Assembly (NCBI RefSeq): GCF_026015985.1
Contig: NZ_CP110389.1
Location: forward strand, 2,202,001-2,266,000
DNA from: Rhodopseudomonas sp. P2A-2r
GTDB taxonomy: Bacteria > Pseudomonadota > Alphaproteobacteria > Rhizobiales > Xanthobacteraceae
Reading direction: 5' to 3'
DNA: 64,000 nt
Shown in pieces: positions 9,137 through 33,563 of this stretch (within the stretch, counting starts at the first letter, position 1; each line of letters starts with the position of its first letter). Both the position numbers and the translations under genes were made by a program. The notes below the pieces were generated by a model, which was not told the DNA's origin, did no database searches, and saw only the letters and a list, made by a program, of their open reading frames with translations.

Positions 9137-9185
9137 ATGGTGGGCGCACAAGGGATCGAACCTTGGACCTCTCCCGTGTGAAGGG
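9137..9185 (-). repeat. Island left attachment site (copy of the tRNA-Val 3' half)
   Basis: These 49 bases are identical to 33100-33148 and cover the tRNA-Val(CAC) sequence from just past the CCA end to the anticodon loop, in the same orientation. Identity stops abruptly after position 9185. This is the pattern left by site-specific integration into a tRNA gene: the intact tRNA is at the far end and the partial copy lies next to the integrase gene. Confidence 0.93.
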
Positions 9186-9261: not shown

Positions 9262-10446
9262 TCAAGCTGCACGGCCTTCCTGCCATTTCAGGTACGCGGC
9301 TTCGCCCGCCTCGCGCTGGGCCTTTTTCAGTGTCGGGGCTCGGCGTCTCACAAGCTTAACGGGATCGCGCATCCAATCGGCGTCGAGCCATTCCTGAATC
9401 ACCGGAAGCGTGTTGATGGCCTCGATCAATGGGGTTTGCGGCACGTTCGTATAATGGCGGCTCATGTCGTCTGTGGCGTGGCCTAGAATCTGATCCTTCT
9501 TGTGACTGTGGACGTTGTTCATGACCAACTGCGTCGAGACGGTGTGGCGGGCGGTGTAGGGCGCCACGTCGAAAACCTGCGAGCGGAGCCGGGCGGCGGC
9601 GATCCCCTTCTTCATCTGCCCGCCGTTATCGTCATAAACTGTGAAGGGTTCGTTTTCCCATGTGCGGACCAAGCGCCCCGGCCGGTTCTCGACCATGTCG
9701 GTGAGCAGGGGAACAAGGGCCTCATGGATCGGGACGCCACGCGCCTCGCCAATTTTAGACTGCGGCAAGGTGATCCACCGGCCGGGCACGTTTACCTGCG
9801 GCGTGTTCATGACAAACAACTCGATTGGGCGCATGCCGGTGTAGAACAGGATGGTAAAGATCGCGGCATTGGCTGGCGAGCAGTCGCGGATGAAGCGCCA
9901 CGCCAGATCGTATGCGACCGGGTAGGAGCCGACTCGCTTCGGCCCGAAGCTAACGACGTTGGTGCCCTTGGGATTCTTTGGCCGTATCCACATTCGGAGG
10001 TCGGCCCATTCCATCGCGACAGCGTGACGCCATACCGCGATGAAGGGCGTCCATAACTGGCGGTTGAGCGTGTCAGGTCGGACGCCGGGATAGAGTTTCT
10101 TCCCGATGGCGTTCATGTCATTCTGGGTGATCTTGCGCAGCACAACGCCATTTAGATGGGCCATGAGGCCGGACCATTCCTGCTTCTCTTCGTCGAACGT
10201 GCCAAGGAAGCGGTGAGACCCTCCGTTCTCAAGGTAAGACTCCACGGCCTGATCGAAGGTCACCACGGCCTTCTTGCCGTGGACGACCTCGGTCAAGAGG
10301 TCACCTTCCTTCTTCGTCAGGAGGCCATGCGCCGCTTTTTTGTTAGCCGTCTTTGTAGATTCGTAGACTTCCCGGCCTTGGGCATCGGTGCCCCGAATGA
10401 TGAAGTTGCCCTTACCGGGCGTTCGCTGCCAGAGGTAGAGCCGCAT
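9262..10446 (-). CDS. int: Tyrosine site-specific recombinase (island integrase)
   Basis: 394 residues. The catalytic domain shows the first Arg in FYTGMRPIELFVMN, the second box in YTARHTVSTQLVMNN (Tyr replaces the usual His of HxxR), then ILGHATDDMSRHYTNVP with the His and the nucleophilic Tyr. The N-terminal part (GLLTKKEGDLLTEVVHGKK) is a SAM-like arm-binding region. It sits immediately inside the left att repeat and reads toward it, the standard arrangement for tRNA-targeting islands. An excisionase-like gene overlaps its 5' end. Confidence 0.93.
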   Translation of the reverse strand: MRLYLWQRTPGKGNFIIRGTDAQGREVYESTKTANKKAAHGLLTKKEGDLLTEVVHGKKAVVTFDQAVESYLENGGSHRFLGTFDEEKQEWSGLMAHLNGVVLRKITQNDMNAIGKKLYPGVRPDTLNRQLWTPFIAVWRHAVAMEWADLRMWIRPKNPKGTNVVSFGPKRVGSYPVAYDLAWRFIRDCSPANAAIFTILFYTGMRPIELFVMNTPQVNVPGRWITLPQSKIGEARGVPIHEALVPLLTDMVENRPGRLVRTWENEPFTVYDDNGGQMKKGIAAARLRSQVFDVAPYTARHTVSTQLVMNNVHSHKKDQILGHATDDMSRHYTNVPQTPLIEAINTLPVIQEWLDADWMRDPVKLVRRRAPTLKKAQREAGEAAYLKWQEGRAA

Positions 10447-13288: not shown

Positions 13289-14126
13289 GGTCCGGACTCA
13301 CTACAGCCACCAGATGACGGCTGCGGCGAGGCTGATGGCACTCATGAAGTTTCGGACGTTGCGGTCGAATCGGGTGGCGATGCGTCGCCAGTCTTTGAAG
13401 CGGCAGAACATACGCTCGATGACGTTGCGCTGCTTGTAGATGGCGCGGTCGTAATCGTATTGGATCTTGCGGCTCTTGCGCGGGGGAATGACGGGCTCGG
13501 TGCCACGCTCGACCAACCACTCGCGCAGCGCCTGGCTGTCGTATCCCTTGTCCGCGACGAGTTCGGCCGACGGTGGCATCGCCTCGATGCAGAGCTGCGC
13601 AACCCTGCAATCGTGAACGTTTCCGGGCGTCAGGAGCAGGACGCAGGGGCGCCCCTTTTCATCGCAGACCGCATGGAGCTTGGTGTTTCGTCCGCCTTTC
13701 GTGCGGCCGATACCATGAGCCAAGGCCCCCTTTTCCACCGCCTGCGCAGCGGTGAACCTTGATGCAGCTGCTGTCGATGAACAGCCGGTCCGGCGCATCG
13801 CCTGCTCCCGCCAGCTCACTGAAAATGCCTTGCCAGATGCCGCGTTCGGACCAGCGGACGAACCGGTTATAAAGCGTCTTCTTTGGCCCATAGACGTCGG
13901 CGCAGTCGGCCCAACGGCCGCCACAGCGCAGGGCATGGACGATCCCGCTTAGCACACGACGATCATCTACCCGGGGCTTGCCGCGCACGCCGGTCGGAAG
14001 CAGCGGCTCAATTCGAGCCCACTGCGCATCGGAAAACCAAAAGAAATCACCCATCTCACCGCCTCCTCGATGAGGCAGTGAATCACGATCAGGCTGCCAG
14101 GGGAATCCGGCTATTGGGTCCGGACC
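13289..14126 (-). mobile_element. IS5-family element, IS427-like, 838 bp, with CTAG target duplication
   Basis: The ends share GGTCCGGAC as inverted repeats (13289-13297 and 14118-14126) with weaker similarity further in. CTAG flanks both sides (13285-13288 and 14127-14130). The element holds a two-frame DDE transposase. Size, target and gene layout match the IS427 group of IS5. It interrupts the 3' end of a membrane-protein gene. Confidence 0.88.
13301..14054 (-). CDS. IS427-type transposase in two overlapping frames
   Basis: Frame A (14054 to about 13735) encodes MGDFFWFSDAQWARIEPLLP and ends its useful part at IDSSCIKVHRCAGGGKGG. Frame B continues with HGIGRTKGGRNTKLHAVCDE, LVADKGYDSQALREWLVERG and NVIERMFCRFKDWRRIATRF down to the stop at 13301. 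The DDE residues are the Asp of FIDSS, the Asp of ADKGYD and the Glu of NVIERMF. The switch lies in AAAAGGGGG (minus strand, plus 13726-13734). Joining needs a +1 shift, either programmed as in many IS5 elements or a mutation. Confidence 0.85.
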
Positions 14127-16869: not shown

Positions 16870-17351
16870 ATGGCCTGCAAAGTTAAGTATCTCAGTAGCG
16901 CGGGCATCCAACATCGCGAAGTCAAAGGCCTTCAGGCGCTTGCTGACGCATTTCCTATAAATTGGCTCGTTTACGCGTCGCTTAATGCGTTTCCCAAGAA
17001 TAGCGCGCCAATCGAGATCGACGTTTTCGTCGTAATGGATGATCGAATCGTACTCTTGGAGCTAAAGGACTGGAATGGGCCGCTCACCGCTAAGGGAGAT
17101 ATGTGGGTCCATGCAGGCAAGCGAGAGCGCTCGCCAGTTATCCTTGGGAACGAGAAAGCAAAAAAATAAAAGGGATAGTTAAAAATCAAATTCCACAACT
17201 CCGGGGAGTCTACGTGGACTCTCGCGTGGTGCTGACGGCGAGCTCAACCCGCGACCTATTGTCCACGGAGGAGCGGCCTCATGTTTTGACATTGGACGAG
17301 GCTAAAAACTGGGGGACCGCGGCGAAAGGAATCGCCTGCTTGGACCAGTGA
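16870..17351 (+). CDS. NERD-domain nuclease-like protein (first part of a defence operon)
   Basis: Start ATG has a strong GGAGGGTGA site. The fold signature is FPKNSAPIEIDVFVVMDDRI followed by VLLELKDWNG: Asp of EID and the ExK of ELK form the PD-(D/E)xK-type active site of nuclease-related domains. The frame breaks at an A7 run (17160-17166). One added A continues into KGIVKNQIPQLRGVYVDSRV and ends at 17351, 160 residues in all. The stop overlaps the next start as GTGA, but one more added base near 17340 would fuse it directly to the kinase-helicase, as in NERD-kinase fusion proteins such as PglW. Which state is real is open. Confidence 0.75.
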
Positions 17352-20300
17352 ACATGACGGTCACTCGACCTAATATGTTGGTCAAGGATTTTGAGAAGTT
17401 ATTTGGCAACGGATCCTATTTTCAACCGCTTAAAATGAATTGGGACGGATATGCCGTCACGGAAGAAGACTTTTACGTTCATCGCGGGGATATCTGGCGG
17501 GAGCACCGTGCTCAACTAAACAGGGAGGAGCGGGTAAAAGGGCTCCTCCGACTTTGGCGGTTCGACAAACTTCCGGTGGGGCTGAATGAGCCAGGCGGAA
17601 GACGATTGATTGCAGATAGGGAAGTCAAAACTGTTGCTTACTTGGGAGACCAAGGTAGCTGGATGGCTGAACGAGGGATTCTTAGAGAGGTAGGAACGCC
17701 ACCCGACGAAGTTTTGACCGAACATCACCAACTGCTTTCCGTGCCGCCCGGTTGGACCACTTTGCGACGTTATATCGAGCGCAATGGCGAGGAACTGCTT
17801 GGCGAGCAGCGCATCGATATCGTCCACACATTGGCTTCAATGATTGGAGAGTTGCATAGCAAGGGAGTTGCGCATCGGGATATTGGCAGCGATGCAATAT
17901 GGTTGGGTTCACCCACCAACATTGCCTTAACGGGCTTCTTTTCAGCTACGCTCCCTGATGACCAGTCGGTTTCCAATTTTCTTGAGGTGCTCGGTACGTA
18001 TTCCGAGCCGGAGCCCAAATGGGATAGCGTAGCTCCGACAGGCAAAGAAAGGGACGTCCATAGCTTGGGCGTACTCATGCGCCGCTTGACGGATCTCGGC
18101 GGAGACATTGCCGCATTTCCTTCCGGCTGGACAGAGGTAGCAGGGAACGCATTGAAGCCTCCGGGAGAGCGATACCTTGATGCCCAGGCTTTCACAGATG
18201 CAATCGGAGAGCTTCGAAGCCCTTCAGGCCCAACAGTCGATCAATCACAGCTGGATGGATATCAGACAACCACAATCCCGTACGTCTCTTACCCGCCATC
18301 TGGAGCCCCCGTAAATGGGACGCATTGTGTCCGATACGATAGCTTCAGCAACGACACTAAGGTCGTCGTAAAAGTTTGGAATGGGATCTTGAGAGGTGAT
18401 GCGCGGCGGGATCATTCCTTACTCGCAATGTTTGAATGTGCTGCTTCTTTGAAGGCGGTTCCTCTACCCGGTATAGCTCCGGTTCTAGACAGCGGGCTAT
18501 CACCGGTTGGGCCATTCGTTGTTACAAGTTGGATCGACGGAGCAACTCTCAGCACATACAAGCCAGCCGACGAAGCGGCGCTTCTCAGTGTATTGGCGAG
18601 TCTTTCAACCGTCGTTGATGCTCTTCATGCCAGTGGGTTCGCTCATGGCGACCTGCATCCCGATAACGTGCTAGTCATCAACAACACTATAGTTTTAATT
18701 GATCTAATAGATGTCTCTCCGGTCGGCGAAGGTCGAGTGCGTAGTCCTGCTTGGGCACCTCAGGATCATGAGCGCCGAACAGACCAGCAGATCGACCGCT
18801 TCGCAGTATGTCGCATGGTTGTGTACTGCATTGATCGCGCGTCCATGCCGAGCCTATCGGTACTCGCTGAAGCCGCATCCATTGAACTAGATCGTCACTC
18901 GATCGAAACATTAAACCCGTTGACTGAGGCGATTGAACGTCAGCGTCGACAACTCAATGCTCCTTCGGCGCTTGCATTCACCGTATCCTCGCCTGACCTG
19001 CGCGCTGTTTCTCTAGTAACCGACGAAGGCCACGTCTGGATAAAGGCATATCGCAATGCCGATGGCATCGAGGTCTATTGGATCACCGGCCTAAACGCGC
19101 GCATCTTGCTGCGAATGGGACCTGACGAGATCGACGGCATTGAGTTGTTGGACGCACGCTTGGCTGATCTTGGGCAGGGCATTCGTTTACCAATGCAAAT
19201 TTCGGTGGAACGAGGACCTTTAGGGGGATGGCGGGAGCTTGGTGGACATCTGCGGAGTATAGTAATAATTCCCGACGGAATAATCTCTGGGTTGAGCGAA
19301 GAACTACCAGATTGGGAGGGAGAAAAGGACGATGAAAAAGATGAGAACGAAGAGGAAACTGATCCCGAAATTGAGGTCGGCATAGCGAGATTAAAAGACC
19401 AGCGGCTCGACATATCGAGGATGTGGCTGCGCTCGGCCGAGATTGAAGAAGATACGGTTCTGCAAGTACGCCTAGATCGCCGCCTTGCCGACGCGGGCAA
19501 TTCAGCTGTTTATGAGTACGAGACGCCTCAACCACTGGAGTTCGAAGACGAGGATATCGTTGAGGTACGACAGGGAGGGATTCAGGGCCGACGTATTGGC
19601 CACCTTGATGTTTCCGGGTGCGACAGTCGCCGACTTGCAATCCGCGATCAACGGTTCCCAATCACTGAAGGTGATACCGTCGCACTCATTGATCGACGTG
19701 ATCGAGTTTCTAAGGAGAGGCGTCGCAGAGCGGTAGAACGCATCACGCGTCGCTCTGGGGTCATTCCTGGTCTGATCGACTATTTCGATTCAGCAGTGGT
19801 TGCGCCCTCCATAAAGTACGATCTGAGGGTCTCAGAAGCCCGCCTCGAAGCGTACAAGCTCAATGAAGGCCAAAGAGTGGCCTTTCATGCTTTGCTTCAA
19901 AGTGGCCCCGTCGGAATGCTGCAAGGCCCGCCTGGCTCCGGTAAGACTAAGTTTATCGCCTCGTTCGCTCATTGGCTACTTACAGAAGGTGGCGCTCGCC
20001 GAGTGCTCATCGCAAGCCAATCTCATGAAGCCGTAAACAACGGACTTGAAGAAGTTTTGAAGACGTACCGTGCCCACGGCGGGCACGCGGACCTATTGCG
20101 GGTCGGTTCGCGGGGAGCAACTGAGCGCGTCCGCCCCTACCAAGCCCGCTCTCTCAGAGAGAGATACAGACTTCGCTTCCAAAATGGGTTGAAAACCCGA
20201 GTGGCTCACGCTGCAGGCGCTGCTGGAATACCCAGAACCTTCGTTCATGATATTGTCGATGTCGATCAGCGCCTTGGAAGCATTCAACGTACGATCGAAC

Positions 20301-21595
20301 TGGCTCTGTTGGCTTTAGAATCTAACGTAGCTCAAGAGGAGCATCGTCGATCCGAAGGCCGTCTCCGAACGCTTACCAAGGCATTTTCTCGAGAGGCCTC
20401 TCGTATACTTGATCGAACAATTGAGGTTGATGTCGACGGGATATCAGCCGCACTGGAAGAAGTATATTCTGCAACTCTTGTGCGGCACGCAAAGGTAAGT
20501 CCGGGTGACCTTGTCATAGTAAGGCGCCTAATCGCTCTTGCGAAAGAGTGGAACGATACTCTCGTTTCGGGTCGTAGAAACTTCGACGAATTTCTTGCCA
20601 AAACCCGTCGGGTCGTGGCGGGCACCTGCGTCGGCTTGGGGCAATCTCAAATAAGGTTAGAAGAAGGAACATTCGATTGGGTAATCGTCGATGAGGCGGC
20701 GAGATGTACGAGCGGTGAACTTGCCGTTCCACTTCAGTTGGGTCGCCGCGTAGTCCTCGTAGGAGATCAACGTCAGCTGAGGCCGATGGTCGATCGCGCC
20801 GTTCAAGAAGGTCTTCGCGATGAGTTCAAAGGGCATTGGAATTTATTAGCAAGGTCCGATTTTGAACGGGCTTTCGAATCGCCTTACGGCAAGAAAAATG
20901 CGCTGGTTTTGGATGAGCAATATCGGATGACGCCTGTGATCAGCAATTTGGTGTCTGATACTTTTTACGCTCCTCATGGCGTTAGCTTGACGCCCTCGAA
21001 GGATCGCATTGCAGACGTCGCATTCGAAAAACTATCGGGAGTTTTAGCTACTCCGCTAGTTTGGCTCGATACGTCAGAACTGGCTGATTCTGATGAAAAG
21101 ACCCGCAATGATGGCAAGGACATTTGGAACGATGCAGAGGTTAGCGCGGTAATTTCGTTGTTGCACCGTTTTTCGCGTGAACACGATCTGACCCAAGAGC
21201 TTTATAACCGAAATGATCCGTCAATTGGCGTCATCTGCATGTACAGCGAACAGAAGCGGCGAATCGAACGAGAGTGGTCCCAGCAACCGTTTTCGGAAGC
21301 GTTTCGCAAAATCGTTACCATTGATACTGTGGACGCATATCAAGGGAAAGAGAACTCAATAGTCATCGTCACGCTCGTTCGAACTAATGATGATAAGCTG
21401 CCCGGGCATGTCGGTCGGGAGAACCGCTGCAATGTCGCGCTCTCACGCGCGAAAGAGCGACTTTACATAGTTGGCAACGTTAAAATGTGGTCGAGTTCGA
21501 AGTGCCATTCCCCCATGCGGAGCGTTTTGACCAAGATCAAGAATATGAGTGACCAAGATGGTCGGATTTGTTCCGAAAAGGAGATCAGGAAGTGA
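17348..21595 (+). CDS. Pseudokinase-kinase-SF1 helicase (UPF1/COG1112-type) defence protein
   Basis: 1415 residues from the GTG, or two fewer from the ATG at 17354. Residues about 100-290 are a degenerate kinase: AHRDIGSDAIWLG at 175 lacks the catalytic Asn and the DFG. Residues about 320-500 are a better kinase: a Lys in KVVVKVW, HGDLHPDNVLV at 433 and VLIDLID in place of DFG. After an acidic linker (near 660-680) the C-terminal half is an SF1 helicase: GPPGSGKTKF at 860, VDEAARCTSGEL at 1114, LVGDQRQLRPM, LDEQYRMTPV near 1190, TVDAYQGKENS near 1328 and NVALSRAKERLY near 1365. Kinase plus COG1112 helicase is the plan of Mokosh type I MkoA, while NERD plus kinase recalls BREX PglW. Role as anti-phage sensor or effector is inferred. 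Confidence 0.85.
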   Translation: MNMTVTRPNMLVKDFEKLFGNGSYFQPLKMNWDGYAVTEEDFYVHRGDIWREHRAQLNREERVKGLLRLWRFDKLPVGLNEPGGRRLIADREVKTVAYLGDQGSWMAERGILREVGTPPDEVLTEHHQLLSVPPGWTTLRRYIERNGEELLGEQRIDIVHTLASMIGELHSKGVAHRDIGSDAIWLGSPTNIALTGFFSATLPDDQSVSNFLEVLGTYSEPEPKWDSVAPTGKERDVHSLGVLMRRLTDLGGDIAAFPSGWTEVAGNALKPPGERYLDAQAFTDAIGELRSPSGPTVDQSQLDGYQTTTIPYVSYPPSGAPVNGTHCVRYDSFSNDTKVVVKVWNGILRGDARRDHSLLAMFECAASLKAVPLPGIAPVLDSGLSPVGPFVVTSWIDGATLSTYKPADEAALLSVLASLSTVVDALHASGFAHGDLHPDNVLVINNTIVLIDLIDVSPVGEGRVRSPAWAPQDHERRTDQQIDRFAVCRMVVYCIDRASMPSLSVLAEAASIELDRHSIETLNPLTEAIERQRRQLNAPSALAFTVSSPDLRAVSLVTDEGHVWIKAYRNADGIEVYWITGLNARILLRMGPDEIDGIELLDARLADLGQGIRLPMQISVERGPLGGWRELGGHLRSIVIIPDGIISGLSEELPDWEGEKDDEKDENEEETDPEIEVGIARLKDQRLDISRMWLRSAEIEEDTVLQVRLDRRLADAGNSAVYEYETPQPLEFEDEDIVEVRQGGIQGRRIGHLDVSGCDSRRLAIRDQRFPITEGDTVALIDRRDRVSKERRRRAVERITRRSGVIPGLIDYFDSAVVAPSIKYDLRVSEARLEAYKLNEGQRVAFHALLQSGPVGMLQGPPGSGKTKFIASFAHWLLTEGGARRVLIASQSHEAVNNGLEEVLKTYRAHGGHADLLRVGSRGATERVRPYQARSLRERYRLRFQNGLKTRVAHAAGAAGIPRTFVHDIVDVDQRLGSIQRTIELALLALESNVAQEEHRRSEGRLRTLTKAFSREASRILDRTIEVDVDGISAALEEVYSATLVRHAKVSPGDLVIVRRLIALAKEWNDTLVSGRRNFDEFLAKTRRVVAGTCVGLGQSQIRLEEGTFDWVIVDEAARCTSGELAVPLQLGRRVVLVGDQRQLRPMVDRAVQEGLRDEFKGHWNLLARSDFERAFESPYGKKNALVLDEQYRMTPVISNLVSDTFYAPHGVSLTPSKDRIADVAFEKLSGVLATPLVWLDTSELADSDEKTRNDGKDIWNDAEVSAVISLLHRFSREHDLTQELYNRNDPSIGVICMYSEQKRRIEREWSQQPFSEAFRKIVTIDTVDAYQGKENSIVIVTLVRTNDDKLPGHVGRENRCNVALSRAKERLYIVGNVKMWSSSKCHSPMRSVLTKIKNMSDQDGRICSEKEIRK

Positions 21596-22970
21596 GCAAC
21601 GCGTCGAGCCGACTACAAGTGGACGCGGCCGATTTTCAGATCGCTTGCCGTCGCTTCACCATCAGAGCGACGATAAGTCGAGATAAGCAGCTCCCCGTTG
21701 TTGACGAGTTTGTCCTGCGGTTGCTGGCGTCACTAGATCGGATCTCGGTATCAAGAATGCGAGCTTGGTTCGGGTTTAGTGCTGCAGAAATGGAGACCGT
21801 GCTCGTTGATATGGGCCGACGCAGACTTATCGAGTTCGACGGCGATGACGTTGCACTGGCAGCTGCTGGGCGCGACCTATTTCGCAATGCGGGTGACAGC
21901 AGAGTTCCTCATGTGGTCGAGGTCGCCCCTTTGGTTGGTGACGTGTGGTTCGATCTAGTTAGCCGCAGCATGGTCCCAAGTTCTCGTTCGAGAAATGTTG
22001 ACTATCTAGTAAAGCTCGCCGAAATGCAGAGCGTTCGTGAATTGCCGGAGGCATTTGCTCGGGAAGCCTTTGAGGAAAACTTCCGGGACTATGCTCGACA
22101 CGTAAGACGATTTCCGGATCCTGACGGGGTAAATCTTTACTCGATATCCGACGTAGAAGGAGGAACTTACGGTTACCAAGTTATGTCAGCAGAGCTTGTG
22201 CTTGATATGGAAAGAATGAGTGTCAGGCCAATCTTTCCGAGAGCTGCAGACGCAGCGCAGACTTTTCAAAAATTGACGGTGGCGGCGAATGAGGCTTGGC
22301 AAGCTGCCCATGGACCCGATTCGGCCACATCTATTGCCAGCGAGTTCGAGCGGCTGACTGGCGATGCGCGCCTAGCTTCATTATTCCAAGATTCGAGTAG
22401 CCCGTCTGCATGGATTGACACGTTGGGAACTTACGAGGGAATTGACCCGCTTTTCAAGCCGACGCTCGGCGCAGCATATCTCCCACAGAACTTAGCGAAG
22501 GCGCTCGAGGTTGTCGCAAAGCTGGAAGCCAGTTCCAGCGCCGTCGAGCTGCTATGGTTACGACCAGGGGGCTCAGCTTGGGGCCGGAGCATCCGCGTTG
22601 CAGAGACCCTCCTGCAGCTTCGCCAAGCTCTCCGCAATGCAGGCCGACTGTCGGTAAGCACGCATCTTTTAATGCCACGTGCGACACCCAAGGCAATCCG
22701 TCTGAATCACAAACGGGTCTTCGATAGGGGGCGTTGCTCCCTCAGGGGCATTTACCCGCAAATCTCGAAATACTTCTTGTTCCCGACATCTTCGCGTTCG
22801 TCAATGCCCACGTCCCGGTCGGTGCACACGCTGTGCCCATCGGAGGGATCGTCACCAATCCGCTACATCTAGAAAGGATAGCCGATAAGCTTTCCGCTGC
22901 GCTAACCGGTAAATGGGAGCAGATATGGCAGCCTAATGTGGAGAAAGCCAGAGTCAGTGGGACACGGTAA
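21592..22970 (+). CDS. Winged-helix-containing partner of the kinase-helicase, frame broken once
   Basis: Start GTG at 21592 overlaps the upstream TGA (GTGA) and has an AGGAGATCAGGA site, so it is translationally coupled. The N-terminal 100 residues (LPVVDEFVLRLLASLDRISV, METVLVDMGRRRLIEFDGDD) look like a winged helix. The C-terminal part (SSAVELLWLRPGGSAWGRSI) has no motif I can name, and I find no HKD phospholipase D motif. One base missing in G5 at 22727-22731 breaks the frame. Adding it continues LPANLEILLVPDIFAFVNAH to a stop at 22970, 459 residues. Its place after MkoA-like genes suggests a second defence subunit. Confidence 0.65.
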
Positions 22971-23711
22971 ACGAGAGGGTGCGTTGTGTTGATGGCCGAT
23001 AGAGTTATCCTACAGCAGTGTTTATCCCCCTTGGGCACTTCAGGCCGGTTAGGCGTGCAGGGCCGCACCACGGTGCACAGCCGCCGAGAGGCGCGCCTTT
23101 CACCCGATGGATCGGTGCTTAGCAGCCATCCAACGCATAGCCGACGGCTTGAAGCTGAAGCTCTGTCCGACTTGAGCGGGGAACGCCCGCGGATATGAAC
23201 AACAGAAACCCATCTTTTTTAGCTTATATCTAGAGTAACGGCAGGGTCGGACGTCATCCGCATGCCGCACCCCGTTCGCAGAACCTATTTTCTATGGAAG
23301 GCCCGCTGGCTGCCGCAACGTCTACCGGGCGCGTCTCTGCGACGGTCGCGCGCCAGTGCGTCGTGATTGCACGGGCGACCCAGCGCCGTCGCATTCGTGC
23401 TCGCTTGGATGAGCGCGCGCGGTGTCTTTGACGTTCTTAATTACGTCCGCTTTCAACCCAAGAACCGGCATGGCCTTGCTCGTTGCCGGTTCGGCCCGGT
23501 GGCGAATGACCCAACTCGGACATAGCGGCCTATCCCAATCACAACCAACGTGCTTTGATGATCATTCCAAGAGCTTCGCGACCTATGGAATCAAAGGAGT
23601 GGCTGTGATGGGCCGGTTACTTTGCCCACAAGGGGCAATCTATGTCCGACAATCCCACAGCTGAAAGCATGGCTGGGTCTCGTGTCCGGCAGCTTTGAAG
23701 GGGGAGCGAGG
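22971..23711. other. Non-coding region with a degenerate short repeat
   Basis: No supported gene. At 23501-23530 lies GGCGAATGACCCAACTCGGA followed by CATAGCGG, a degenerate copy of the short palindromic repeat seen again at 26051-26075 (see that entry). The rest has mixed composition and no long credible frame. Confidence 0.4.
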
Positions 23712-24305
23712 TTGAAGCAGATCGGTCTTTTCGAAATGCGTCGATTGGAGGCGTTGAGCAACACCATCTTCGGTGTTGCGATGACGCTGCTCGCCTACGA
23801 TCTGCCGAAGGCCAGCAGGTTCGCGAACGCGCCGGCCTGGATAGACCTTGTCCGTGCCTACGCACAACCTATCATCGCGCTGATGATCAGTTTTATCGTG
23901 GCCGGCGTGTTTTGGCTCAGCCATCATCGGCGACTCACCTTCGCGCCGGAAGGCAGCCGCGGCGAAGTCTTCCTCAATCTGATCTTCCTGTTATCGATTG
24001 TCATGCTTCCGGTGACGAATGGACTTTACGGCGTGTATCGGCTCGATAGCGTCGTCGCAGTAAGCGACGGCTTCCATCTGACAGTCATTGCCGGCTTGAA
24101 CGCGCTGCTATGGGTTCTGGCGCTGCGAGGTCGCCGCAATTCCGAGTTGCTGGCAATCGCGGTCTTTCCGGTCTTCGCACTCGTGTTCGCAACGGTGATG
24201 GCCGCCGTCGCTCCATTCGTTGCACAATTCATGTGGTGCCTGGCCTTTGGCGCGCCTCTGGTGGGCTGGTTGGCGGCCCGGCGTTGGCCGCCGAGAACGA
24301 ATTAG
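23712..24305 (+). CDS. TMEM175-family (DUF1211) membrane protein, putative potassium channel
   Basis: About 198 residues. The family signature RLEALSNTIFGVAMTLLAYD in the first helix corresponds to the RxxxFSD selectivity-filter helix of TMEM175, though the usual F and D are replaced (ALSN). Five further hydrophobic segments follow: PIIALMISFIVAGVFWLSHH, NLIFLLSIVMLPVTN, FHLTVIAGLNALLWVLAL, AIAVFPVFALVFATVMAAV and FMWCLAFGAPLVGWL. TTG at 23712 has a GGGGGAG site; ATG at 23736 is the alternative. Bacterial members form potassium channels. Substituted filter residues make conduction uncertain. Confidence 0.7.
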   Translation: MKQIGLFEMRRLEALSNTIFGVAMTLLAYDLPKASRFANAPAWIDLVRAYAQPIIALMISFIVAGVFWLSHHRRLTFAPEGSRGEVFLNLIFLLSIVMLPVTNGLYGVYRLDSVVAVSDGFHLTVIAGLNALLWVLALRGRRNSELLAIAVFPVFALVFATVMAAVAPFVAQFMWCLAFGAPLVGWLAARRWPPRTN

Positions 24306-24668: not shown

Positions 24669-25562
24669 TCATTGACCCATTCCAGATAATGGCGCGGTTT
24701 CCCCCATCGCCTTGGAAACATAGAGGGCCTTGTCGGCGCGGTCGATGGACTGTTCCACGGGTATGTCCGGATCCAAAAGAGTCAGCCCGAACGAGGCGGT
24801 GACGTGAAATATTCCCTTGCTATCCGCCTCATGTGACAATGACCCAAGTTCCTCCCGCAACCGATCAATGATGTCGTGGCCTTTCTGCAAGTCGATATCC
24901 GGTAAACAAATCAGAAACTCCTCTCCACCGTAGCGAAATAGCTTATCATAGGGACGCAGGTGCGCCATGACGTAGCGCGCAACGCCGATCAATACCTTGT
25001 CTCCGACGGCGTGCCCATGCTTGTCGTTGACGGACTTGAAGAGATCCAAATCCATCATCGCAACGGCACACCCGTGCACCCTGCGCTTTACCAATTCGTG
25101 TTGCTCGCGGAGCTTGGTCAGCATTCCGGCGCGGCTCGGCGTTCCGGTCAACGGATCGAGATCGAAGAGCGCATCTTCGAGTTCGCGCTGAACTGTCGCG
25201 AGTTCCAACCGCATGCGTTTCAGCGCGGTCACGAAGCGTTCGTAGTCCTCAATCGGAACCGGCACACCGTCCGTGCACGATTGCAGAAGATGCGCCGCAT
25301 ATTGATGCATGTGTTCATGCTCAATGCCGAGCTCCGCAAAGCCGGGATGGTGTTCAAACGCGACAATCCCGGACTTATAATACCATTGACCAAATCGGCA
25401 CATGTGGTGAGCATCGCCGCTGGTATCCCGCTGATCCGGCGCCAAGCGGCAGATCAAGGTGCCGTAAAGCATTTCCGCCCACTGTTCGTGATTGTAAGAG
25501 GCTTGTCCGATCTCTTTCAGCGCCATGCGCATTTGCTCGTCGGACATATTGGGGATAGCCAT
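24669..25562 (-). CDS. Diguanylate cyclase with N-terminal CZB zinc-sensing domain (DgcZ-like)
   Basis: 297 residues. Residues 1-120 match a CZB domain: YNHEQWAEML (His), HHMCRFGQWYY (Cys), HHPGFAELGIEHEHMHQYA (two His), the 3His-1Cys zinc site known from E. coli DgcZ. The C-terminal GGDEF domain has MMDLDLFKSVNDKHGHAVGD, the active loop RYGGEEFL and an inhibitory-site RPYD five residues before it. It should make cyclic di-GMP from two GTP and be inhibited by zinc and product. ATG at 25562 chosen; GTG at 25571 is possible. Confidence 0.9.
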   Translation of the reverse strand: MAIPNMSDEQMRMALKEIGQASYNHEQWAEMLYGTLICRLAPDQRDTSGDAHHMCRFGQWYYKSGIVAFEHHPGFAELGIEHEHMHQYAAHLLQSCTDGVPVPIEDYERFVTALKRMRLELATVQRELEDALFDLDPLTGTPSRAGMLTKLREQHELVKRRVHGCAVAMMDLDLFKSVNDKHGHAVGDKVLIGVARYVMAHLRPYDKLFRYGGEEFLICLPDIDLQKGHDIIDRLREELGSLSHEADSKGIFHVTASFGLTLLDPDIPVEQSIDRADKALYVSKAMGETAPLSGMGQ

Positions 25563-26369
25563 TTCCTGCACCCTCGTATCTCAAACCATTGACCGTTTAT
25601 TGAATCATTATCCGACACGCGTTAAAGTTTTGATCTGCAGAAATTCTGTTGTGTGCTAGTTGGCGGTTTTGGCAACCGATTTCGCGGCATGTCCGCTATC
25701 CGGTCGGACACTGTGCGGGACGTGCCAGCTGCGCCGGGTTGTGTCCCTTATCGGCGGACGTCGTGCGCATAGGCCTCCATGTCGCATGTTTTACCCGAAC
25801 GGACAGACAATTTGCTTCCAAGAAATCGACAAATTGGCCGCCGGCATTAACTCGTGCCAATCCACGATGCACGATTTAGCGCCGCCGCGGTTGTGACAAC
25901 CTCTCTTCAACTCTCGGTCAATCGTCGTTTTGCGACACCGCTCAGGTCCCGATCACTTCCGAAACTGGCACAAAGCGTCGATTACTGCGGTGCAGCGGCA
26001 TGTCCGGAGTTGAGGGTAGACCGGGAAGATCGGCGCATAGCCAGAGTGACGCGAATGACCCAATTCGGTCATCGGCAACCTCCAAAGATATTTGGTTGGA
26101 TCGTCCCCTTCGTCTTCCCTGTGTCGAGTGTAGGCAGCTACACTGCCGCATTAGCTCAACCGGCCGCAGCGCGACGGATCGATGGCGTTTGTGCGCTCGC
26201 CCGATCTGCATTCGATCGAGCTGTTGCAGAAGGGCCAGCCGAAACCGCCCGCAGAGCCGTGGACGTCGATGCCCAACACCGGACATTGGTGAGAGGTTTT
26301 CGACTCCGCGTACTGGAACCAATCATTACCTTTTGCGTTCTCCATGCATAAGAAATCATGGAGGCTGAC
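25563..26369. other. Non-coding region with short palindromic repeat
   Basis: No gene supported. At 26055-26072, ATGACC-CAATTC-GGTCAT is a perfect 6-bp palindrome inside GCGAATGACCCAATTCGGTC; its near copy is at 23501-23530. It looks like a small dispersed repeat. The upstream 300 bases hold the promoter of the diguanylate cyclase, which I cannot place exactly. Confidence 0.4.
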
Positions 26370-33099: not shown

Positions 33100-33148
33100 A
33101 TGGTGGGCGCACAAGGGATCGAACCTTGGACCTCTCCCGTGTGAAGGG
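33100..33148 (-). repeat. Island right attachment site, inside tRNA-Val
   Basis: Identical over 49 bases to 9137-9185. It overlaps the 3' half of the intact tRNA gene, so integration kept the tRNA functional. Confidence 0.93.
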
Positions 33149-33175
33149 AACGCTCTCCCGCTGAGCTATGCGCCC
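33101..33175 (-). tRNA. tRNA-Val (anticodon CAC)
   Basis: Read on the minus strand: acceptor GGGCGCA pairs with TGCGCCC. D arm GCTC/GAGC, anticodon stem TTCCC/GGGAG with loop TTCACAC giving anticodon CAC, T arm CAAGG-TTCGATC-CCTTG, and an encoded CCA end. 75 bases including CCA. It decodes GUG and is the integration target of the island. Confidence 0.96.
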
Positions 33176-33563
33176 GGGACATCGTGCACGGAAGGTGTCG
33201 GGGCGGATCGGCCCCGGCGGTGCAGACGTGAGCGGGATTTACGGAGTCGGGGTGGGGGTGTCAACCCTGACGCGGGAAATGGGACGGGTTTCGTGGCGCG
33301 GCGGTCGACAAACCGGCTGGGCGGCAGGTCTCGTTCCCCGGGCGCGATGCAGCGCGCGGCCGGCGATGCGCAGCATCGCGGGCGGCGTGGTGCGTCGCAG
33401 ACCAGGGGCCCACGCTTGAATAAGGTGTACCGGGATCGCGGATCTGCGCAGCAGCATGCGATGCTGCGCATCCCAGCGAAGCTTTGCTTCGCGAGGCCGC
33501 AGCGCGTCCGGGAAACGGGAGCGGCGGCGCACGAGCACGGCGCAAATTTCTTCAATGTTGATA

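Follow-up and report, generated by a model that had tools for sequence, protein, structure and literature searches.

Does the cluster of nuclease, kinase, and helicase reading frames in Rhodopseudomonas sp. P2A-2r represent an undescribed antiphage operon or a copy of a system that is already known? The cluster lies in a 64,000-nt stretch of contig NZ_CP110389.1 (positions 2,202,001 to 2,266,000), here termed the window. A sequence-only reading had picked out window positions 16870–22970 as three overlapping genes for a NERD nuclease, a pseudokinase–kinase–helicase fusion, and a winged-helix partner, and had suggested that the arrangement mixes the plans of Mokosh type I MkoA and BREX PglW and may be a new subtype. 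The locus is better explained as a Mokosh type I operon (mkoA–mkoB) of the branch that carries NERD, borne as cargo by an integrative element at a tRNA-Val gene and containing three frame changes as sequenced; we place the probability of this interpretation at roughly 60%. Mokosh itself was reportedly discovered by Millman et al. in 2022.

A Mokosh type I operon spread over several frames

The operon is listed as four plus-strand open reading frames (ORFs) of 99 residues (16870–17169), 82 residues (17103–17351), 1,415 residues (17348–21595), and 434 residues (21568–22872). Pfam assigns NERD (PF08378, E = 1.1e-7), including the EID...ELK motif, to the first piece and a superfamily 1 (SF1) helicase (AAA_11, E = 6.1e-37; AAA_12, E = 7.5e-39) to the third, with nothing above the curated cutoff in the second and fourth; read across the pieces, the domain order is NERD, two kinase-like regions, and the AAA_11/AAA_12 helicase. 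The PADLOC MkoA model PDLC03921, which itself extends from NERD through both kinases to the helicase, fits the first three pieces at profile positions 2–96, 100–150, and 167–1603 of 1607. Both features required of MkoA in Mokosh type I, a kinase-like domain and a COG1112/UPF1-like SF1 helicase, are present (PADLOC MkoA 1076.8 bits for the third piece, together with the Pfam kinase, AAA_11, and AAA_12 matches), as is the N-terminal NERD domain characteristic of the NERD branch, which here lies out of frame with the remainder of MkoA.

Searching the window by tblastn with an intact relative (P0096) recovered one MkoA over three frames, with residues 1–95 at 16870–17154, residues 96–151 at 17154–17321, and residues 148–1573 at 17309–21586. 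Piece 1 (16870–17169, plus strand; PADLOC MkoA profile 4e-23) is accordingly matched by relatives as far as 17154, after which the frame is lost; piece 2 (17103–17351, plus strand) completes the NERD region in another, second frame, its conserved part being 17154–17321; and piece 3 (17348–21595, plus strand) contains the kinases, an acidic linker, and the helicase in a third frame, with homology from about 17309. Judged by this colinearity, MkoA is one gene read in three frames and not a set of separate genes. Intact relatives encode all four domains, from NERD through the pseudokinase and kinase to the UPF1-like helicase, as a single protein of about 1,540–1,710 residues. A protein search with the 1,415-residue piece, which lacks NERD, returned 82 proteins, 74 of them MkoA-like including the window's own. 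By the Pfam column, 72 of the 74 bear NERD (the window's protein is one of the two without); 66 of these 72 have it in the same protein as the helicase domain, and 61 measure 1,540–1,670 residues. Six shorter proteins (P0151, P0153, P0157, and P0166–P0168; 823–994 residues) have NERD and kinase domains with no helicase domain listed, and are possibly split MkoAs or fragments.

The two kinase domains differ in their catalytic residues. The first has its core at residues 137–250 of piece 3 (17756–18097, plus strand; Pfam and PADLOC kinase matches, motif columns), and the second, canonical-looking kinase spans about residues 334–536 (18347–18955, plus strand; PADLOC and NCBIfam matches within these residues), followed by the helicase core at residues 837–1378 (19856–21481, plus strand; Pfam). 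Motifs were scored in an alignment (A3) of 28 MkoA rows chosen by hand from the 74 MkoA-like proteins. The first kinase retains HRD in 27 of the 28 rows, with His and Asp in all; the catalytic-loop Asn persists in just two, and Thr or Ser replaces the DFG Asp in every row, so this domain is a pseudokinase across the set. The second keeps HGDL..xN, with Lys, His, Asp, and the DFG-position Asp in all 28 rows and Asn in 27. Its His, Gly, Asp, Asn, and Asp columns are also invariant in a more distant alignment (A7) of 20 NERD-bearing loci, although a loose motif pattern catches 18 of those 20 rows. The sequence-only reading had called these domains and their order correctly, from NERD through a pseudokinase with HRD kept and Asn and DFG Asp lost, a better kinase, and an acidic linker to the UPF1-like helicase. 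PglW and a subset of DndF proteins are described as showing the same succession of pseudokinase and kinase (PMC12839542).

Directly downstream of MkoA, where Mokosh type I requires MkoB, the partner gene starts in a GTGA overlap at 21592. This second GTGA junction of the earlier reading is thus confirmed in sequence, and it resembles that of relatives (gap of −4 in 10 of 21 pairs, measured by longest ORF). The partner matches the second PADLOC MkoB model, PDLC03923, at 7e-47, which makes it a known MkoB, a result that the sequence-only reading had itself named as one that would count against novelty. Residues 1–389 of a relative's MkoB (P0002) map by tblastn to 21592–22758 and residues 380–452 to 22728–22946, in two frames, and the tail was caught independently by the MkoB profile (positions 378–440 at 22734–22913, E = 6.8e-6). 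The in-frame part (21592–22758, plus strand, within the listed ORF 21568–22872) thus holds the winged helix, a middle region, and the start of a PLD-like domain, with the tail in the other frame (22728–22970, plus strand); the previously proposed end point of 22970 is the end of this tail. Taken at face value, the sequence would leave NERD detached from the remainder of MkoA and deprive MkoB of its native C-terminus.

The earlier observation that the partner lacks a phospholipase D (PLD) motif also stands. Pfam detects no PLD in the window's MkoB or in any of 20 related NERD-branch partners, and the paired HKD motifs expected of an active PLD nuclease (HxK(x4)D) are absent from alignments A1, A4 (NERD-branch MkoB rows), and A9; isolated single matches to a loose HxK pattern occur in three of the 20 partners. 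Predicted models of intact MkoB relatives, built on an alignment (A2) of 92 of 94 homologue hits (P0059 and P0078 left out), display a winged helix followed by one PLD-like domain without HKD residues, and structural matches are to archaeal TrmB and TrmBL2, a likeness of fold only. In TrmB and TrmBL2, the PLD-like domain is not known to act as a nuclease; these are transcription or chromatin proteins with no known partner helicase and of a different length from MkoB. A sequence search of the PDB with the MkoB profile gave one match, at E = 1.8. Among 385 genomes of the class, 17 match the MkoB family, and the 16 other than the strain's own do so only over a short winged-helix stretch.

Overall, the profiles of the NERD branch of Mokosh type I (PDLC03921 and PDLC03923) match both proteins almost from end to end, and domain and operon order are the same. 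The window copy differs by its three frame changes and is otherwise an ordinary, fairly distant member, its nearest sampled relative being that of Altericroceibacterium (70% identical across 690 aligned columns in the helicase part). An antiphage role, as first suggested, is supported by this homology.

Decay, assembly error, and other explanations

Two of the frame changes fall in MkoA and one near the end of MkoB, and the coding content is colinear with that of relatives. One explanation, to which we give slightly less than even odds, is a true pseudogene: the element, dispensable and gained by horizontal transfer, would have accumulated fixed mutations, so that the strain makes no working Mokosh protein. 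The density of the changes favors decay: there are three in about 6.1 kb, compared with frame changes in three of 43 genes (49.9 kb) elsewhere when tested against a same-genus genome, for a Poisson probability of at least three of about 0.006 on a small background sample (43 stretches of the strain's own genome plus the window). This sample is stricter and larger than an earlier one (3 of 18 genes), which it supersedes; one of the original three genes dropped out and a new one entered. Consistent with a dispensable element, full-length MkoA was found in none of 17 other same-genus genomes searched, one of which showed a weak kinase match. Decay is harder to reconcile with coding segments that keep family-typical identity (56–88% to seven relatives) and a 4.2-kb main piece free of stops, and with the position of all three changes at homopolymers, the usual place for assembly errors; two of the three background changes likewise adjoin runs of four G.

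The other explanation, about which we are similarly tentative, is that the strain's operon is intact, with two genes, and that the frame changes are errors in homopolymer base counts. Each of the three change intervals contains a run of 5–7 equal bases, the operon is fully colinear with intact relatives, and frame changes occur elsewhere in this genome as well (3 of 43 genes versus 1 of 45 in the reverse test). Against this, the density at the locus is several times the background, and the same-genus genes flanking the element show few changes (1 of 15, 1 of 16, and 0 of 16 against three relatives). Programmed frameshifting was considered, since one of the runs consists of seven A, and is not supported because relatives read straight through. 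Whether broken or mis-assembled, the locus is a copy of a known defense system and is therefore of small direct value.

A genuine three-gene operon of an undescribed subtype, with NERD as a separate, translationally coupled protein, is very unlikely. It would account for the GTGA overlap at 17348, and two plasmids (L290 and L291) do have NERD annotated as its own ORF before the kinase gene. However, the residues around the supposed stop and start match the unbroken linker of relatives by tblastn, and this first junction is a by-product of the frame change, because the relatives' conserved coding sequence runs through it. Even the NERD gene of the window is divided between two frames, and 72 of the 74 hits of the NERD-less query have NERD and kinase in one protein, 66 of them with the helicase domain too. 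In the Sphingomonas plasmid (L291), the kinase–helicase and MkoB are also in pieces, and only the Pantoea plasmid (L290) comes near an intact locus with a free-standing, unbroken NERD, no survey for others having been made. A free-standing NERD gene in the window was thus rejected on colinearity over three frames, and so was an undescribed subtype mixing two plans: the arrangement is already held by the PADLOC models PDLC03921 and PDLC03923, by a table in a 2023 review (PMC10952713), and by E. coli genomes.

That the locus belongs to BREX type 2 is scarcely credible: the NERD–pseudokinase–kinase order does occur in PglW as described in PMC12839542, and a PglW profile matches NERD at 41 bits, but NCBIfam BREX_PglW scores 38.4 bits against a curated cutoff of 990, the C-terminal half is an MkoA helicase, and no BREX hit appeared among 10 element ORFs tested. 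Of the likeness to PglW proposed earlier, the N-terminal cassette therefore remains, common to MkoA, BREX type 2 PglW, and a subset of DndF; the helicase and partner do not, the C-terminal parts of PglW and DndF differing from that in the window, with no MkoA-type helicase protein and MkoB partner in the same description. Membership of MADS was likewise rejected, as the NERD and kinase pieces match NCBIfam MAD6 far below its curated cutoff (50.4, 20.5, and 48.1 bits for the three pieces versus 460).

Two nuclease arrangements in Mokosh type I

The NERD-type assignment of the window operon raised a comparison of more use than the locus itself. Nuclease domains were surveyed in 28 MkoA/MkoB pairs, 20 with NERD and 8 without. 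The NERD-bearing pairs comprise 11 loci from the MkoA locus search, L166, L167, and the plasmid loci L274–L280. Among 80 matched loci listed in that search, 13 had been taken as MkoA loci (L013–L024 and L049) and 67 dropped as matching mainly over the helicase; L017 and L024 were then excluded, being cut by contig ends. The NERD-less pairs (L164, L165, L269–L273, and L281, with L168 excluded as a fragment) came from the other PADLOC MkoB model and from plasmid searches. Plasmid loci were picked by hand, seven among the 40 matches listed of 299 records and six among the 40 listed of 278. Six of the NERD-less pairs were recovered by way of MkoA; L164 and L165 came from a profile that includes PLD, so that the presence of PLD in these two cannot count as independent.

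By Pfam, every long MkoA bears NERD (20/20) and none of the corresponding partners bears PLD (0/20), and no short MkoA bears NERD (0/8), with PLD in seven of the eight partners. The eighth partner, of 356 residues, lies beside an IS3 transposase and is missing its C-terminal part. In the PLD branch, MkoA measures 1,165–1,221 residues and its partner 582–639 residues with two HKD motifs. This branch (PDLC03920 and PDLC03922) shares with the window operon the kinase-like domain, the SF1 helicase, and a winged-helix MkoB directly downstream, and differs in lacking NERD, in showing one kinase-like domain, in an MkoB of about 580–640 residues with two HKD motifs, and in its helicase clade. A tree of the helicase half separates NERD-bearing (21 rows, support 100/99) from NERD-less (8 rows, 100/100) proteins. 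The tree does not settle how the two clades join relative to other UPF1-like helicases, and its outgroup branches are long. The two MkoA and two MkoB models of PADLOC follow the same split in the four loci tested.

In the 28 sampled pairs, the NERD and PLD nucleases thus look mutually exclusive between branches. We see an even chance that Mokosh type I comprises two distinct systems. In one, an HKD-type PLD nuclease of MkoB would do the cutting; in the other, NERD (of PD-(D/E)XK type) and a second, active kinase would have been added to MkoA, with MkoB keeping a single PLD-like domain, its catalytic residues lost, as a sensor or clamp resembling archaeal TrmB. The nuclease would have switched subunit while the helicase–MkoB frame stayed. 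Among the literature matches listed for Mokosh, MkoA, MkoB, and NERD with kinase and helicase, the text available contained no description of such exclusion. The same 2023 review table lists both NERD and a PLD-like domain under Mokosh type I, and replacement of a PLD-type nuclease by PD-(D/E)XK is noted for Dpd-like systems in PMC12458937. Since partners that lack the PLD-like domain by sequence are still matched by PADLOC's MkoB model PDLC03923, the domain as a type I criterion would appear to mark only the PLD branch. The NERD branch is, from DNA matches, common in E. coli: among 5,426 complete E. coli genomes, 350 have a match to the NERD-type operon of Citrobacter (L015), and in 309 the match covers 80% or more of this query. 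A DNA search of plasmids with the window operon gave no match.

Several points weigh against this picture of the locus and its branch. The three frame changes mean that the operon may be dead, and PADLOC returned no other defense hit on 10 further element ORFs (not all ORFs), so no defense cluster is seen at the locus. The branch survey is small, hand-picked, and partly selected. Two plasmid loci, added for their split-looking features and standing outside the survey counts (two more of the 40 listed of 299 records), depart from the fused plan: Pantoea piersonii (L290) has NERD on its own annotated ORF, with the kinase–helicase ORF 69 bases later in the same frame, and Sphingomonas sp. NIC1 (L291) has NERD on its own ORF alongside the fragmented genes described above. 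The NERD-type MkoA of Acinetobacter rongchengensis (L017, 2683–7917), which lies outside both kinase alignments, has HGN in its second kinase where others have HGD, and both of its kinases may be inactive. As for MkoB, the PLD-like assignment in the NERD branch depends on a predicted fold, Foldseek with the whole model gave no match at E < 0.001 (such searches name families by fold only, and absence from their lists does not rule a family out), and when the profiles of the two types of MkoB were compared, the winged-helix part alone aligned (probability 30%, E = 0.00055). The review table lists a PLD-like domain for type I, which the NERD branch lacks by sequence. Finally, another review gives the Mokosh mechanism as unknown (PMC12926258).

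With these reservations, a working scheme for intact NERD-type copies can be proposed. MkoA and MkoB, kept at similar levels by translational coupling, would work together in a single complex in which MkoB, with its winged helix and noncatalytic PLD-like domain, would bind nucleic acid and hold MkoA quiet. Engagement of invading RNA, or of an R-loop or DNA, by the UPF1-like helicase might be the trigger; the second kinase, positioned by the pseudokinase, would then phosphorylate a target, either within the complex or elsewhere in the cell, and nucleic acid would be cut by the N-terminal NERD nuclease of MkoA. Degradation of viral transcripts by Mokosh is stated, on others' authority, in PMC11291487. 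The reciprocal nuclease pattern merits a second look: if there are two branches with exclusive nucleases, results from one would not be transferable to the other, and the description of MkoB as a PLD nuclease would not hold in the NERD branch. The NERD–pseudokinase–kinase cassette common to PglW and DndF would then be a transferable module, its trigger open to study in a two-gene system natural in E. coli.

Breaks near the NERD–kinase linker recur in unrelated copies (L290 and L291), whether through decay, error, or nuclease shedding. On Polaromonas sp. JS666 plasmid 1 (L278; NC_007949.1, 127611–139434), a NERD-type Mokosh is nested between the pglX and pglZ genes of a BREX-1 operon, and on Pseudorhizobium flavum plasmid 2 (L275; NZ_LR723671.1, 157792–169531), another is found in a defense-rich setting with a patatin-like phospholipase, a nucleotidyltransferase, and AbiH-family and reverse-transcriptase-domain proteins. 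PLD-type copies stand beside a divergent SIR2-like gene (L164; G672:C3) and a divergent KAP NTPase gene (L165; G505:C189). Three phage-collection records (BK061480.1, CAKLQH020000064.1, and CAKLQF020000039.1) contain distant matches over 63–70% of a NERD-type MkoA, annotated as nuclease or helicase.

The integrative element

The operon is carried by an integrative element spanning about 24 kb (9137–33148), as the sequence-only reading had proposed in placing it on an integrative island. The element is bounded by 49-nt perfect direct repeats spaced 23,963 nt start to start, the outer attachment (att) repeat at 9137–9185 being a copy of the tRNA-Val end and the other, at 33100–33148, lying within the tRNA gene at its end. 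Its G+C content is 0.569, compared with 0.643 for window positions 33201–64000. A tyrosine-type integrase (9262–10446, minus strand; Pfam Phage_integrase, E = 4.8e-14) sits just inside the outer repeat, and the integration target is tRNA-Val (CAC) at 33101–33175 (minus strand; ARAGORN), a tRNA that three same-genus genomes have at the equivalent position. The features of a tRNA-targeting integrative element are therefore all in place: an integrase, a target tRNA, and a direct repeat on either side. Synteny of the three genomes with the window picks up again at about 34.1 kb. The left flank shows no synteny with same-genus relatives, and the corresponding stretch of one of them (G017) maps elsewhere in the strain's own genome; no empty site is therefore demonstrated.

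Other genes of the element include an IS5-type transposase in two overlapping frames (13301–14054, minus strand), related to IS5 copies on rhizobial plasmids, and, close behind the operon, a TMEM175-like channel protein (23622–24305, plus strand). A diguanylate cyclase (GGDEF) with a CZB zinc-binding domain (24669–25571, minus strand), an alpha/beta hydrolase, and a small helix-turn-helix protein are encoded there as well.

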